From: Sandaracinobacteroides sayramensis
GTDB taxonomy: Bacteria; Pseudomonadota; Alphaproteobacteria; Sphingomonadales; Sphingomonadaceae
Length of the DNA stretch: 63,503 bases
Assembly (NCBI RefSeq): GCF_022014495.1
Contig: NZ_JAKLSQ010000004.1
Span: 1-63,503, forward strand
Reading direction: 5' to 3'
Under the pieces are notes generated by a model. It saw only the letters and a program-made list of their open reading frames with translations, made no database searches and was not told where the DNA came from. Below are positions 3,842 to 63,463 of the stretch, piece by piece (the first letter of the stretch is position 1; the number at the start of each line of letters is the position of its first letter). The position numbers were made by a program, and so were the translations under genes.

Positions 3842-4076
3842 GGTGATTATGCAGTTTGCAAACCAACGGCAATTGTGCGGTCGCCGACCTGACAACGGAC
3901 ATTTCCAACAGCCGTCACCCCGGGCTTGACCCGGGGTCCCGCTGTCTTCCTCAAGTGCTGCGCTGGCGGAAAAGCTGGACCCCGGGTCAAGCCCGGGGTG
4001 ACGAGGGAGTGGCATAGCCACCGCTTCCCAGTCGAACCGCCGTTCGCTGCATGGGTTCGCAAACAGCACAATCACC
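3842..4076. repeat. Possible MITE-like element with imperfect terminal inverted repeats
   Basis: The 23-base ends 3842-3864 and 4054-4076 are inverted copies matching at 20 of 23 positions. They enclose the dispersed palindrome at 3913-4003. The stretch fills the 317-base gap between the small secreted protein gene and cobT and contains no gene. Whether the outer repeats belong to a mobile element or are chance symmetry cannot be decided from one copy. Confidence 0.4.
3913..4003. repeat. Dispersed palindromic repeat, copy 1 of 6
   Basis: The left arm begins CGTCACCCCGGGCTTGACCC and the right arm is its mirror, ending GGGGTGACG, around a variable centre of about 35 bases. Five further copies occur at 8724, 15521, 22689, 42763 and 63374. 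It lies between a plus-strand gene and the 3' end of cobT. Confidence 0.9.
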
Positions 4077-6292: not shown

Positions 6293-8740
6293 ATGGCGAA
6301 GCGGTCGTTCGTGGGGCGCGTCTTCTTCTGGCTGATGTGGCTGCTGGGCATCCTGCTGCTGGCGGCGCTGCTGCTGGCGGGCTGGTTCTGGTGGCGGATG
6401 GAAGGCTCCGTGCCGAAACTGGAGGGCGAGGTGGCCATGCCCGGCCTTTCCGCGCCGGTTTCGGTGGAGCGCGATTCGCTGGGAACGGCGACGGTGACGG
6501 GCGAGACGCGGGCGGATGTGGCGCGGGCGCTCGGCTATCTGCACGCGCAGGACCGCTACTTCCGCATGGACATGCAGCGGCGGATGGCCGCCGGCGAACT
6601 GGCGGCGCTGGCCGGAGAGCCGATGGCCGACATCGACCGGCGGATCCGCCCGCACCGATTCCGCGCCCGGGCACGGGCGGCCGTCGACTCCATGCCGCCG
6701 GGCGAGCGCGCCTTGCTGGACGCCTATGTGGCGGGGGTGAACCAGGGGCTTTCCGAGCTTCGCGCCCAGCCGTTCGAATATCTGCTGCTGCGTGGCGAAG
6801 CCGCGCCCTGGCGGCCGGAAGACACGATGCTGTCGGTGATGGCCATGTATCTGAACCTGCAGCCGGCCACGCCGCAGCGGGAGCTGGACCGGGCGCGGGC
6901 GGCGAAGGCGCTGGGGGCGGAAATGTCCGCCTTCCTCTATCCGGTGACGACAGAGCTGGACGCGCCGCTGGACGGGTCCAGCTTGCCCGAGCCGCCGATA
7001 CCCTCGGGAATTGCGCCCATGCGCGTGGCGCCCGTTCCGGACGCGCCGGGTGTGCCCGTTCCGGATGACGTGCGCATCGCCGAGGCGGTCGGCTCCAACA
7101 ACTGGGCGGTGGGCGGGGCGCTGACGGCGAGCGGCGCGGCGCTGGTCGCCAACGACATGCATCTGGGGCTGGACGTGCCCTCCATCTGGTATCGGGCGCG
7201 GCTGGTGGTGAAGCCGGCCGCCGGCAGCGCCGAAGCGCCGATGGACGCGACCGGGGTGACGCTCCCCGGCACGCCCTTCCTGGTCGCCGGCTCCAACGGC
7301 CGGATCGCCTGGGGCTTCACCAACAGCTATATCGACACCTCGGACGCGGTGGTGGTGGAGTGGGTGGACGCCAAGGCCGGCAGCTATCGCACGCCGGCCG
7401 GGGTGGCGACGGTGAAGCGGGTGGACGAACGGCTGTGCGTCAAGTCCGACTGCGAGACTTTCCCGGTGCGCGAGACCGTCTGGGGGCCGATCGTCGCCAG
7501 GGATGCCTTCGGCCGCGACATCGCCATGCGCTGGACCGCGCATGAGCCGGACGCGATCCGGCTGGCCGCCGCGCTGGAGCTGGAGCGGGCGCAAAGCGTG
7601 GCGCAAGGGCTGGAGATCGCCCATCGCTCGGGCATTCCGCAGCAGAATTTCACCGTGGGCGATACCGCCGGGAACATCGCCTGGACGATCATCGGCCGGG
7701 TGCCGAGGCGGGTGGGCTTCGACGGGCAGGAGGCGGTGAGCTTCGCCGACGGCAGCCGGCGCTGGGACGGCTATCTGACTCCGGCCGAGACTCCGACCGT
7801 GCTGAACCCGGCGGACGGGCGGATATGGACCGCCAATTCCCGCGTGGTGGGCGGCGAGGGATTCCGCAAGCTGGGGGATGGCGGCTATGATGCGGCGGCG
7901 CGCGCCGGGCGCATCCAGGAGCTGCTGCTGGCGCGGCAGCGCTTCGCGCCGGCGGATTTCCTGGCGATCCAGCTGGACGACACGGCGACCCGCAACCGCT
8001 TCTGGCAGCAGCTGATGCTGGCCGAACTGCAAAAGCGCGACGATCCGCGGCTGAAGGCGATGCTGGCGCCGGTGACGAACTGGGGCGAGCGGGCGCTACC
8101 CGCTTCGGTCGGCTACCGGCTGGTGGACCGCTTCCGCAAGGAGGTGGTGGACGGGCTTTACGAAGGCTGGGTCGGCGCGCCGGAGAAGAATATGATGCGG
8201 CGCAACTATGTCGCCTCGCAGGCGGAGGGGCCGGCGCGGCGGCTGATGCGCGAGCGGCCGGCGGCGCTGCTGCCCAAAGGCTTCGGAAGCTGGGACGCCT
8301 ATCTCGACCATGTGCTGCAGGCGGTGGCGGAGGATGTGGATCTGCAAGCGGGCGGCGATGTGGGGCGCTACAGCTGGGGCGGAGTGGCGAAGGCCGGGAT
8401 TTCGCATCCGCTGGCCCGCGCCATCGCGCCGCTCGCCTGGGTGACGAACCCGAAGGAGGTGGCGGTGCCCGGCGACCGGCCGACGGTGCGGGCCTCCGCG
8501 CCGGGATTCGGCGCTTCGGAGCGTTTCGCGGTTTCGCCGGGGCGGGAAGCCGAAGGCCTGTTCCACATGCCCGGCGGGCAGGCGGGGAGCCCGCGCACGC
8601 CCTATTATCTGGCCGGGCATGAGGTTTGGGTGCAAGGGCAGCCGACGCCCTTCCTGCCGGGCGCGGCGAAGTGGCGGCTGGAGATGCGGCCGGCGGGTCA
8701 GGCCGGGGAATCCCGTTACCCCTCGTCACCCCGGGCTTGA
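6293..8740 (+). CDS. Penicillin acylase family protein, membrane-anchored
   Basis: The 815-residue precursor belongs to the N-terminal-nucleophile hydrolases that cleave amides such as acyl-homoserine lactones or beta-lactam side chains. A hydrophobic anchor spans about residues 7-32. The autocatalytic site is in VGSNNWAVGG, where Ser268 would become the N-terminus of the beta chain; NDMHLGL and PGTPFLVAGSNGRIAWGFTN are also typical. The true substrate cannot be told. The last codons (SSPRA, stop) and the stop itself lie inside a dispersed palindrome starting at 8724, so the C-terminus has probably been altered by that repeat. Start 6293 follows a GGGGGAGG site. Confidence 0.92.
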   Translation: MAKRSFVGRVFFWLMWLLGILLLAALLLAGWFWWRMEGSVPKLEGEVAMPGLSAPVSVERDSLGTATVTGETRADVARALGYLHAQDRYFRMDMQRRMAAGELAALAGEPMADIDRRIRPHRFRARARAAVDSMPPGERALLDAYVAGVNQGLSELRAQPFEYLLLRGEAAPWRPEDTMLSVMAMYLNLQPATPQRELDRARAAKALGAEMSAFLYPVTTELDAPLDGSSLPEPPIPSGIAPMRVAPVPDAPGVPVPDDVRIAEAVGSNNWAVGGALTASGAALVANDMHLGLDVPSIWYRARLVVKPAAGSAEAPMDATGVTLPGTPFLVAGSNGRIAWGFTNSYIDTSDAVVVEWVDAKAGSYRTPAGVATVKRVDERLCVKSDCETFPVRETVWGPIVARDAFGRDIAMRWTAHEPDAIRLAAALELERAQSVAQGLEIAHRSGIPQQNFTVGDTAGNIAWTIIGRVPRRVGFDGQEAVSFADGSRRWDGYLTPAETPTVLNPADGRIWTANSRVVGGEGFRKLGDGGYDAAARAGRIQELLLARQRFAPADFLAIQLDDTATRNRFWQQLMLAELQKRDDPRLKAMLAPVTNWGERALPASVGYRLVDRFRKEVVDGLYEGWVGAPEKNMMRRNYVASQAEGPARRLMRERPAALLPKGFGSWDAYLDHVLQAVAEDVDLQAGGDVGRYSWGGVAKAGISHPLARAIAPLAWVTNPKEVAVPGDRPTVRASAPGFGASERFAVSPGREAEGLFHMPGGQAGSPRTPYYLAGHEVWVQGQPTPFLPGAAKWRLEMRPAGQAGESRYPSSPRA

Positions 8741-8806
8741 CCCGGGGTCCCGCTTCTTGCCCTCGCCGGACGGAAAGCTGGACCCCGGGTCAAGCCCGGG
8801 GTGACG
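8724..8806. repeat. Dispersed palindromic repeat, copy 2 of 6
   Basis: The same mirrored arms as copy 1 enclose a shorter centre. The left arm overlaps the end of the penicillin acylase gene and supplies its stop codon (TGA 8738-8740). Confidence 0.9.
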
Positions 8807-15505: not shown

Positions 15506-15520
15506 AAATCATACTCCCTT

Positions 15521-15602
15521 CGTCACCCCGGGCTTGACCCGGGGTCCAGCTTTACGACCAGCGGAGCAGAAAGCGGGATCCCGGGTCAAGCCCGGGATGA
15601 CG
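15521..15602. repeat. Dispersed palindromic repeat, copy 3 of 6
   Basis: The left arm is identical to the other copies. The right arm carries two base changes (GGATCC and GGGATG instead of GGACCC and GGGGTG). It lies between the convergent rarA and 26-residue peptide genes. The immediate flanks also show weak inverted similarity to one another. Confidence 0.88.
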
Positions 15603-15634
15603 AAACACATCAATTACTTGTATGAGTCCTCAAC

Positions 15635-15715
15635 CTAGATGACGTTGAACAGCAGCAGCCCGATCACGACGATTCCGGGGACGCCCAGCAGCCAGAGAAT
15701 CAGGCCTTTTCCCAT
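15635..15715 (-). CDS. 26-residue hydrophobic membrane peptide
   Basis: The predicted product is almost entirely one transmembrane segment (MGKGLILWLLGVPGIVVIGL and six more residues). A GGAGA ribosome-binding site lies at a good distance before ATG 15715, the N-terminus is positively charged and the frame is closed by TAG at once after the hydrophobic run. It is divergent from the YjbR-family gene. I recognise no family. It could be a small inner-membrane regulator; the call rests on start signals and composition only. Confidence 0.5.
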   Translation of the reverse strand: MGKGLILWLLGVPGIVVIGLLLFNVI

Positions 15716-15790
15716 TTCATGTCTCCATCCTGTGCAATGGATGGAAAACGGCGCAGGCGGCGGGAAGTTCCGTGGCAAGGAGAGCGGAAG

Positions 15791-16114
15791 ATGGACTGGG
15801 ACGATGTCGCGAAGGCCGGGCTGGAACTGCGCGGCGCGGAAGCCTCCACCGCTTATGGCCGCCCTGCCCTGAAGGTGCGCGGCAAGGTGATCGCCTGCCA
15901 CGGCAAGGCCGACGACCATTTCGTGCTGATGCTGGACCTGGAGCGGGTGGCGTTGCTGATGGAGATGGAGCCGGACATCTTCTTCCAGACGCCGCATTAT
16001 GTCGGCTGGCCGTGCGTTCTGCTGCGCTATGATCGCCTTGCCAGGCACGATCTCGCGCCGCTGCTGCGGGAGGCCTGGGCGCGGCGGGCGGCGAAGGCCT
16101 GGCTGGCGGACTGA
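15791..16114 (+). CDS. MmcQ/YjbR family protein
   Basis: The 107-residue protein follows the YjbR (CyaY-like fold) pattern. It has ALKVRGKVIACHGKADDHFV, a short acidic helix with LMEMEPDIFFQTPHYVGWP, and a C-terminal helix ending in a DLAPLLREAW-type stretch. YjbR proteins are small and often called DNA-binding, but their biochemical role is poorly defined. A strong AAGGAGAG site precedes ATG 15791. The tail-sheath-like gene begins 12 bases downstream, so the two are probably co-transcribed. Confidence 0.88.
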   Translation: MDWDDVAKAGLELRGAEASTAYGRPALKVRGKVIACHGKADDHFVLMLDLERVALLMEMEPDIFFQTPHYVGWPCVLLRYDRLARHDLAPLLREAWARRAAKAWLAD

Positions 16115-16126
16115 GGGAGGCGGCGG

Positions 16127-17158
16127 ATGCCGGAAGTTGCGATCGAGGAGATGTCGCCCGGGCCGCGGCCGGTCGAGATGCTGGAGATGAACCGGCTGGC
16201 GGTGATCGGGCGATTCGCGCGCGAGCGGCCCGCGCGGCTCCGCCGGGTCGAGGACATTGCGGCGGCCGGCCTGCCCGAGGGGCGGGTGGCGGCCGGGCTG
16301 CGCGCCTTTTTCGAGCTGGGTGGGCGGGAGGCCGTCTATCTGCCCTCCCTCACGCTGGCGCCGGTGGAATTGCCCGAGGGCATGGGGCTGGTGGCGGCGC
16401 CGGAGGCGGATGGGGACTGGACGCTGCTGGCGCCTCTGGCCGAGGCCGCGCGCGCGGCCGGCGCCATGCTGCTGCTGGATGCCCCCTGGGCGGCGACCTC
16501 CGGGGCGAAGCTGCAGGCCTGGCGGCAGGCGGGCGGCGCCGACTGGAAGGATGCCGCAGCCTTCGCCCCCTGGATGCTGGCCGCCGATGGCGGCGCCGTG
16601 CCGCCTTCGATGGTGGCGGCCGGGGTGGTCGCCCGGATGGAGCGGCGGCTGGGGGTGTGGAAGGCGCCATCCGGCGTGCAGGCGACGGCCGACCCTTACC
16701 GGCCAGCGGTGGAGCTGGACGAACGGGCGCAATCCCTCACCAGCCCGCTGGGCGTAAACCTGTTTCGCAGCTTTCCCGGACGGGGGCATCTGCTGTGGGG
16801 CGGGCGCACCCTCTCCAGCGATGTGGAGTGGCGCTATCTGAACGTGCGGCGGACGGTGCGGATGGTCGAACGTTCGTTGACGCAGGCGCTGCGCTGGGCG
16901 GCGTTCGAGGCGGACGGCGAGTTGCTGTGCGCAAGCGCCCGGATGCAGGCCGACGCTTTCCTGCACCAGCTGTTCCGGCAGGGCGCTTTTCAGGGGCAGA
17001 CGCCGCAACAGGCCTATTTCCTGCGCTGCGAGCGGACGAGCGTGGCGGAGGACGATCGCGTGTCCGGGCGGCTGATACTGGAAATGGGGCTGGCGCTGAC
17101 GAGACCGGGGGAGTTTCTGTTCTGGCGGCTGACACTGCCCGCCGCCGCTTTGGATTGA
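16127..17158 (+). CDS. Orphan contractile tail-sheath-like protein
   Basis: The 343-residue protein resembles phage / contractile-injection sheath proteins along its length. The N-terminus MPEVAIEEMSPGPRPVEM mirrors the sheath handshake arm (pattern PGVYVEEVPSGxRPI). The middle has VPPSMVAAGVVARMERRLGV before WKAPSG, as sheaths have near their conserved core. The C-terminal domain (about 205-338) carries GVNLFRSFPGRGHLLWGGRT, the WRYLNVRRTVRMVERSL stretch and a final strand with RPGEFLFWRL. It is shorter than usual sheaths, apparently lacking the outer inserted domains. No tube, baseplate, spike or AAA+ remodelling gene is nearby; it sits between the yjbR-family and DUF429-like genes with gaps of 12 and 11 bases. 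The role is unknown. Confidence 0.8.
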   Translation: MPEVAIEEMSPGPRPVEMLEMNRLAVIGRFARERPARLRRVEDIAAAGLPEGRVAAGLRAFFELGGREAVYLPSLTLAPVELPEGMGLVAAPEADGDWTLLAPLAEAARAAGAMLLLDAPWAATSGAKLQAWRQAGGADWKDAAAFAPWMLAADGGAVPPSMVAAGVVARMERRLGVWKAPSGVQATADPYRPAVELDERAQSLTSPLGVNLFRSFPGRGHLLWGGRTLSSDVEWRYLNVRRTVRMVERSLTQALRWAAFEADGELLCASARMQADAFLHQLFRQGAFQGQTPQQAYFLRCERTSVAEDDRVSGRLILEMGLALTRPGEFLFWRLTLPAAALD

Positions 17159-17169
17159 TTCCCGCTTTC

Positions 17170-18021
17170 ATGGACTCCGGCGCGCCTTCGTTCGACCGTT
17201 TCGTGGCGGTCGACTGGTCCGGGGCGAAGGGCGTTCGGCACAAGGGCATTGCAGTCGCGCTGGCCGAAGCCGGCGACGGGGCGCCGGCGATCGTGCCGCC
17301 GCCCTCGCCCGGCGGCTGGGCGCGCGGCGAGGTCGCGGACTGGCTGGAAGCGCTGCCGGGGCGCGTGCTGGCCGGGTTCGACTTCTCCTTCGCGCCGCCG
17401 TTCGTGGAGCGCGGCGCCTATCTGCCCGGCCTTGAAACCGCCGGCGACGCGCCGGGCTTCTGGGGGCATGTGGAAAGGCATTCGGACGACCCGGACTATG
17501 GCGCGGCCGGCTTCATGCGGGGCGCGGCGCGGCCGCATTTCTGGATGGGGGCGGCCGACGGGCCGAAAGCCGGCTTCCTGCATTTCCGCCAGTGCGAGCA
17601 GCGCTTCAACGCCGGCGGCGGCGGCAAGGCCTCGACCGTGTTCGACTGCGTGGGGGCGGCGCAGGTGGCCAAGGCGAGCTTCGCCGGCATGCGGCTGCTC
17701 CACCGGCTGCGGCGAAGCCATGCCATCTGGCCGTTCGAGGCGCCGGGCCCGCGCACCGTGGTGGAGATCTACACGCGCGCGATGCTGCGCCATGCCGGCG
17801 GGCGGGGGCTGAAGCTGAGGGAGGTGGAGGGGCTGAACGCGGCGCTGGCGGCGCTGGGAAGCGCAGGCGTTCCGGCGCGCGCCTACAGCGACCATGAGAC
17901 CGACGTTCTGGTGTCGGCTGCCGCGCTTCGGGCGCTTTCGCCCGACCGGCGCTGGTGGCGGCCCGAAGGCATGAGCCGGGCGATCGCCCGCACCGAAGGA
18001 TGGACGTTTGGCATTGGCTGA
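17170..18021 (+). CDS. DUF429-like protein of unknown function
   Basis: The 283-residue protein begins with FDRFVAVDWSGAKG and contains VLAGFDFSFAPPF, an arrangement of acidic residues on strands that suggests an RNase H-like fold. Later it has TVVEIYTRAMLRH and YSDHETDVLVSAAALRAL, where further acidic residues could complete a metal site. I cannot assign a substrate. It follows the sheath-like gene by 11 bases and precedes crcB by 23 bases. Confidence 0.7.
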   Translation: MDSGAPSFDRFVAVDWSGAKGVRHKGIAVALAEAGDGAPAIVPPPSPGGWARGEVADWLEALPGRVLAGFDFSFAPPFVERGAYLPGLETAGDAPGFWGHVERHSDDPDYGAAGFMRGAARPHFWMGAADGPKAGFLHFRQCEQRFNAGGGGKASTVFDCVGAAQVAKASFAGMRLLHRLRRSHAIWPFEAPGPRTVVEIYTRAMLRHAGGRGLKLREVEGLNAALAALGSAGVPARAYSDHETDVLVSAAALRALSPDRRWWRPEGMSRAIARTEGWTFGIG

Positions 18022-22688: not shown

Positions 22689-22779
22689 CGCCACCCCGGG
22701 TTTGACCCGGGGTCCGGCTTTTTCTCCCCGGCACCGTGGGAGTGGAAAAGCTGGACCCCGGGTCAAGCCCGGGGTGACG
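22689..22779. repeat. Dispersed palindromic repeat, copy 4 of 6
   Basis: The arms match the other copies, with small changes in the left arm (CGCCACC and GGGTTTGACC). It lies in the 338-base gap after pccB, which otherwise holds the terminator at 22,832 and probably the promoter of the next operon. Confidence 0.9.
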
Positions 22780-42762: not shown

Positions 42763-42853
42763 CGTCACCCCGGGCTTGACCCGGGGTCCAGCTTTCTTCT
42801 TCGGGCGCGCCGGCAGTAGAAAAGCTGGACCCCGGGTCAAGCCCGGGGTGACG
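42763..42853. repeat. Dispersed palindromic repeat, copy 5 of 6
   Basis: Full mirrored arms as in copy 1. It lies between the convergent photolyase and glycosylphosphotransferase genes and may help end transcription from both. Confidence 0.92.
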
Positions 42854-63373: not shown

Positions 63374-63463
63374 CGTCACCCCGGGCTTGACCCGGGGTCC
63401 AGCTTTCTCCCTCAGGCGTTTGGGCAGAGAAAAGATGGACCCCGGGTCAAGCCCGGGGTGACG
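63374..63463. repeat. Dispersed palindromic repeat, copy 6 of 6
   Basis: Mirrored arms as in copy 1, with a centre of about 36 bases. It lies in the final 266 bases after the EPS operon, where besides the terminator no gene is supported. Confidence 0.92.

Follow-up and report, generated by a model that had tools for sequence, protein, structure and literature searches.

A minimal eCIS-type sheath gene standing alone in Sandaracinobacteroides sayramensis

Contractile sheaths are known as components of machines in which a tube and a baseplate are also required; Afp4, a third sheath paralogue, forms the baseplate-side layer. Among the closest known systems to the gene described here are the main sheaths of extracellular injection systems (eCIS), Afp2 and Pvc2 (PDB 6rbn, 6j0b, 6j0c), and the Streptomyces CIS sheath (PDB 8bky, 8bl4, 9gts), which at 534–539 aa is much longer and belongs to a full machine. 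Sheath subunits assemble by exchanging N- and C-terminal arms with their neighbours and, as free monomers, keep both ends packed onto their own chain, according to one structural study (PMC6088184); another describes a handshake between subunits of an eCIS as conserved (PMC8894135). A third reports that a recombinant phage sheath forms tubes by itself, even when shortened by up to 25 N-terminal residues (PMC6357053). Phage polysheaths, for example gp053 of phage FV3, are also among the closest known systems, each being a sheath protein studied in the absence of other phage proteins; gp053 is a recombinant phage protein and the gene considered here a natural lone one. Minimal sheaths as short as 321 aa appear in a study of sheath evolution (PMC9230969), and a metagenome survey of contractile systems filtered out clusters without baseplate, tube or sheath-initiator genes (PMC12210884), so that solo sheaths would not appear in it. 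A literature search with most subscription papers and all preprints outside its reach turned up no publication about lone sheath genes.

The gene lies in a stretch of 63,503 nucleotides (contig NZ_JAKLSQ010000004.1, positions 1 to 63,503), the whole of which is called the window here, and occupies positions 16127..17158 of the forward strand. It is an intact open reading frame of 343 aa with an ATG start, no internal stops and coding-like GC by codon position (0.76/0.54/0.87), and a Shine-Dalgarno-like AGGGAGG can be read on the same strand at 16114-16120, six bases 5' of the ATG, where it shares one base with the end of the yjbR stop codon. The product matches PHROG 17610 (tail sheath) with an E-value of 1.6e-46, solved sheaths with values as low as 1.7e-43, Afp2 with 1.6e-36 and Afp4 more weakly with 9.2e-21. 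Pfam Phage_sheath_1C is passed narrowly (27.0 bits against a cut-off of 26.9), the score for Phage_sheath_1 lies under its cut-off, and no NCBIfam sheath model matches at E≤0.1. Structure prediction confirmed the sheath fold with a complete core, at a pLDDT of 58 over residues 1-10. By fold and by sequence homology, then, this is a contractile sheath protein, and what the gene encodes, standing alone, is a minimal eCIS-type sheath whose fold is complete. A preliminary description made from the letters of the DNA had recognised a phage-type sheath with N-terminal arm, core and C-terminal domain, and had proposed the Phage_sheath_1C search and the structure prediction that have now borne out both homology and fold. 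Its nearest relatives by sequence, however, are injection-system and not phage sheaths (the best phage among the matches listed has 31% identity over 58%), its N-terminal arm is shortened, and a length of 343 residues, which had been thought small, is normal for a minimal sheath, Afp2 having 354.

What sets the window sheath apart from Afp2 and Pvc2, besides a shortened N-terminal arm and a C-terminal arm in which Gln has become Leu, is its company. An eCIS main sheath is encoded with tube, gp25 and baseplate genes, and there are none of these in the row beside the window sheath. The absence of partners noted in the preliminary description extends, as the genome search suggested there revealed, to the entire genome (3.82 Mb, 99.96% complete), which has a single sheath match and none to PF04865 (Baseplate_J), PF06841 (gp19-like tube) or PF04965 (gp25), the three partner markers that made up the search. 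All three were detected in each of two control genomes chosen for their large eCIS loci, G081 and G286. Used by itself, PF04865 overlooks genuine eCIS, being negative in six genomes (G113, G117, G123, G182, G500 and G565) in which the sheath lies beside a tube and further eCIS-like genes, the latter recognised partly by eye, and the sheath query for its part missed the sheath of a Mu-type prophage in G065.

The upstream neighbour, at 15791..16114 (+), is a YjbR-family gene (Pfam, 35.6 bits) whose frame is open from 15719, 15791 being chosen as the probable start, and 12 nt separate its stop from the sheath ATG. After a further gap of 11 nt comes the ATG of a gene at 17170..18021 (+) that is conserved at 71–78% identity in three of five congeners. 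The short gaps, the intact frame and the operon-like layout of the preliminary description are therefore real, while its 'DUF429-like' label for the downstream gene found no match in Pfam at E≤1 or in NCBIfam at E≤0.1. In three congeners (G163, G101 and G250) the row reads cobS-rarA-X-DUF429-like-crcB-rluC, gene names that, YjbR and MgsA/RarA apart, are putative. In G163 the product of X is an NF038122 metalloprotease bearing a PEPxxWA-CTERM sorting signal (L058:10532-11683, minus strand), in G101 it is a PEP-CTERM protein and in G250, judged by eye, a possible lipoprotein; in G284 rarA directly adjoins crcB and the DUF429-like gene is also absent, and the G212 contig stops at rarA. Among the congeners yjbR was seen in G163 only and the sheath in none of the five (G284 being 81% complete), so the survey of yjbR-sheath-DUF429 order that had been proposed was negative, and the conservation found lies in relatives at other loci. 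As the sheath is absent from congeners and the content of X varies, the window sheath occupies a variable slot of a conserved row. A contractile prophage remnant was rejected as an identity for the locus on the strength of these conserved chromosomal flanks, the low phage match and a genome free of Baseplate_J and gp25 matches; a known anti-phage defence protein was likewise rejected, since neither the sheath nor either gene beside it matched a PADLOC model at E≤0.01.

Two other features of this region deserve mention. An inverted-repeat hairpin around CCCGGGTCAAGCCCGGG occurs in six copies in the window (3919-3997, 8730-8800, 15519-15604, 22695-22773, 42769-42847 and 63380-63457), CCCGGGTCAAGCCCGGG itself having 12 matches where 0.49 would be expected, and one hairpin copy lies between rarA and yjbR, adjoining the sheath locus. 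A short hydrophobic frame of about 26 codons at 15639-15720 (-), the end of a longer frame, lies 5' of yjbR and ends in GVPGIVVIGLLLFNVI.

A lone sheath gene is not unique to this genome, and similar ones recur in other bacteria. At family level 31 of 298 genomes gave a sheath match, at class level 33 of 385 and at phylum level 64 of 398; the three samples overlap, and the counts include the genome itself. We read 36 neighbourhoods, that of the window among them; most had been picked for a short sheath or a missing Baseplate_J, so that proportions among them are not rates. The sheath was alone in 16 (G000, G065, G140, G072, G335, G462, G558, G1024, G1025, G628, G526, G134, G701, G730, G1015 and G226), accompanied by a tube only in five (G120, G260, G490, G939 and G962), and beside at least one further eCIS-like gene in 15. 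The solo sheath of G526 lies 2 kb from a contig end and that of G226 is frameshifted. At the level of the genome, in a comparison that covered the solos other than G701, G730 and G1015, all three markers are absent from G000, G140, G335, G462 and G558; a tube lies elsewhere in G072, and gp25 together with a tube elsewhere in G134; gp25 is present in G628 and G526 and matched under cut-off, as the only marker, in G226; G065 carries a Mu-type prophage equipped with a sheath, a tube and Baseplate_J of its own; and G1024 and G1025 have a separate eCIS besides the solo sheath. Gp19-like tubes apart from the sheath locus (L055, G072:C1:602023-602448; L056, G286:C13:44747-45175; G134:C1:2237600-2238022; G120:C1:1218055-1218498), the neighbourhoods of which were read for G072 and G286, may be a solo-tube counterpart of the solo sheaths.

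How far the window sheath has departed from its relatives can be gauged from 61 alignment columns in which 85% or more of 33 sheaths from eCIS and viral contigs agree. It holds 42 of these, the fewest of ten solos scored, the nine others holding 50 to 58; the 33 reference sheaths hold 96% on average and 82% at minimum, and are the same sheaths that define the columns. Viewed in sequence, both arms are present and both are changed. The N-terminal arm (residues 1-16, 16127..16174, +) is shortened in alignments and lacks the PGVY/PGIY stretch of other sheaths; residues 260-268 (16904..16930, +) read FEADGELLC where the 33 reference sheaths mostly have FEPN....W; and the C-terminal arm, PGEFLFWRLTL (residues 327-337, 17105..17137, +), ends in Leu 337 instead of the Gln of eCIS main sheaths. 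That Gln, the last conserved column, lies in the C-terminal strand and is found in 16 of 16 eCIS main sheaths, labelled as such by neighbourhood or by Baseplate_J within ~12 kb. It is replaced by Leu, Ile or Trp in 12 of 15 intact solos, the exceptions being G134, G701 and G730, and is kept in four of five sheath-tube pairs. Afp4/Pvc4 resembles the window sheath in having a hydrophobic residue here, the overall match to Afp4 being weaker than that to Afp2. In 19 loci on viral contigs with three sheaths in tandem, many of them near-copies of each other, Gln occurs in 18 first, 18 second and two third copies, third copies having mostly Leu or Phe; one third copy that was tested is Afp4 (7e-233) and the first copy of the same locus is Afp2. 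Overall, 124 distinct viral-contig sheaths divide into 82 with Gln, 22 with another residue and 20 without the motif. When independent pairs are compared, being solo and lacking Gln coincide five times and never run the opposite way, two pairs being tied under the usual pairing; with a median p of 0.0625 the association is suggestive only.

In the N-terminal arm, at least seven solos keep the PGVY/PGIY motif, and the arm is absent in G628 and altered in most species of the genus g134. Four solo sheaths of g134 (L092, L094, L095, L235) share the N-terminus MALKQVVRWMRSMTR ahead of the sheath, which is basic and amphipathic and, with a hydrophobic moment of 0.86–0.87 in the three scored, ranks at the 99th percentile when set against 118 N-termini taken as background. 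It could possibly be a membrane anchor; the N-terminus of the window sheath has no such helix (hydrophobic moment 0.50).

In a tree of 46 sheaths, ten solos do not form one clade (AU p 1.2e-5), and in a tree of 56 rows the solo label requires seven changes; the tree rows are main sheaths. The window sheath falls within an all-solo clade of seven rows (97/94), or eight with G134 (97/95), a place that is unsure because its end branch, at 2.46, is the longest. In g134, a genus of this clade, five of seven species have the solo sheath, one of the two without it being 78% complete, and an SDR gene adjoins it in all five (by eye). Across ten pairs its dN/dS there runs from 0.16 to 0.58, and the three closest give 0.16 to 0.19, so the solo sheath of g134 is under purifying selection; genes flanking it in three species have values of 0.07-0.26, from which it follows that the solo sheath changes faster than its neighbours. 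A sheath-tube pair shared at one locus by two species of g398 (L218:9135-10666 and L219:9292-10838), with no baseplate genes in the 20 kb read, has values of 0.36 for the sheath and 0.32 for the tube against 0.14 and 0.04 for the flanks. The window sheath has no close relative, which precludes a direct selection test on this copy. Neutral drift was simulated in 1000 runs, with a related solo gene taken down to a retention of 69%: the frame stayed unbroken in 13.6% of runs with substitutions alone and in 0.2% when frameshifts were added at a rate assumed to be 2% of that of substitutions. The outcome favours recent or continuing selection on the window copy without settling it.

We tentatively prefer, at somewhat under an even chance, the reading that the window sheath has been domesticated, as a protein with the sheath fold, weakened arm exchange and no part in injection, its function being inferred. 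Domestication, already supposed in the preliminary description, is backed indirectly by the solo clade and by selection in one genus of it; for the window copy, which has no close relative and keeps the fewest conserved columns of the ten solos scored, it is a supposition. The main rival, decay, is unlikely: a lone sheath, whether the relic of an eCIS since lost or a gene taken up singly, that drifts without function would account for the poor retention of columns and of FEPN...W, the longest branch, the lack of a sheath in all five congeners and the broken gene of G226, and under substitutions alone an unbroken frame survived 13.6% of the neutral runs. Against decay stand the intact frame of the window copy, improbable once frameshifts are allowed in the simulation of the related gene, and relatives in the solo clade that are under selection. 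It is quite improbable that partners exist elsewhere in the genome and were missed by the profiles; the failure of PF04865 in six genomes, the displaced tubes of G072 and G134 and the phage-type tube families beyond the search make this conceivable, but a nearly complete genome is negative for three markers that both eCIS controls possess.

Other readings concern what an intact lone sheath might do. That the protein still builds long tubes inside the cell, serving as a filament for structure or storage, seems a slim prospect: the core fold is complete and the recombinant phage sheath makes tubes alone, but another system's free sheath protein is monomeric, and the changed arms argue mildly against an ordinary contractile polymer. 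The small sheath-derived assembly supposed in the preliminary description is conceivable. Slimmer than long tubes is the prospect of a poison, a protein that would cap the sheaths of invading contractile phages or injection systems, or be built into them, and so stop them from growing. An Afp4-like arm, fast evolution and repeated origin would suit such a role; identity to phage sheaths is low, however, PADLOC has no matches for six solo sheaths and two window neighbours, no defence genes were recognised beside the window sheath, and two g134 species hold a solo sheath together with a full eCIS, so that a solo sheath need not block a resident system.

On the domesticated reading, ordinary sheath subunits would polymerise through arm exchange, and in the window sheath the shortened N-terminal arm and the Afp4-type hydrophobic residue of the C-terminal arm would weaken that exchange, so that the C-terminal strand probably folds back on its own chain. 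From the published arm-exchange structures we infer that exchange is weakened in solos generally and that they are non-contractile, and the window sheath would thus be a monomer or small oligomer serving as scaffold or adaptor in place of a contractile tube. It is tempting to go further, if doubtfully, and to see in solo sheaths a class of cellular proteins in its own right that has arisen more than once: freed from tube and baseplate and with a C-terminal arm like that of Afp4, its members would bind other partners (perhaps membranes in g134, through the amphipathic N-terminus) or cap and poison foreign contractile sheaths. A lineage of lone sheaths maintained by selection would mean that the fold serves some purpose other than injection, and the passage from machine to sheath-tube pair to sheath alone would offer a natural series for asking which residues serve assembly, with the change from Gln to a hydrophobic residue in the C-terminal arm as a single-residue hypothesis.
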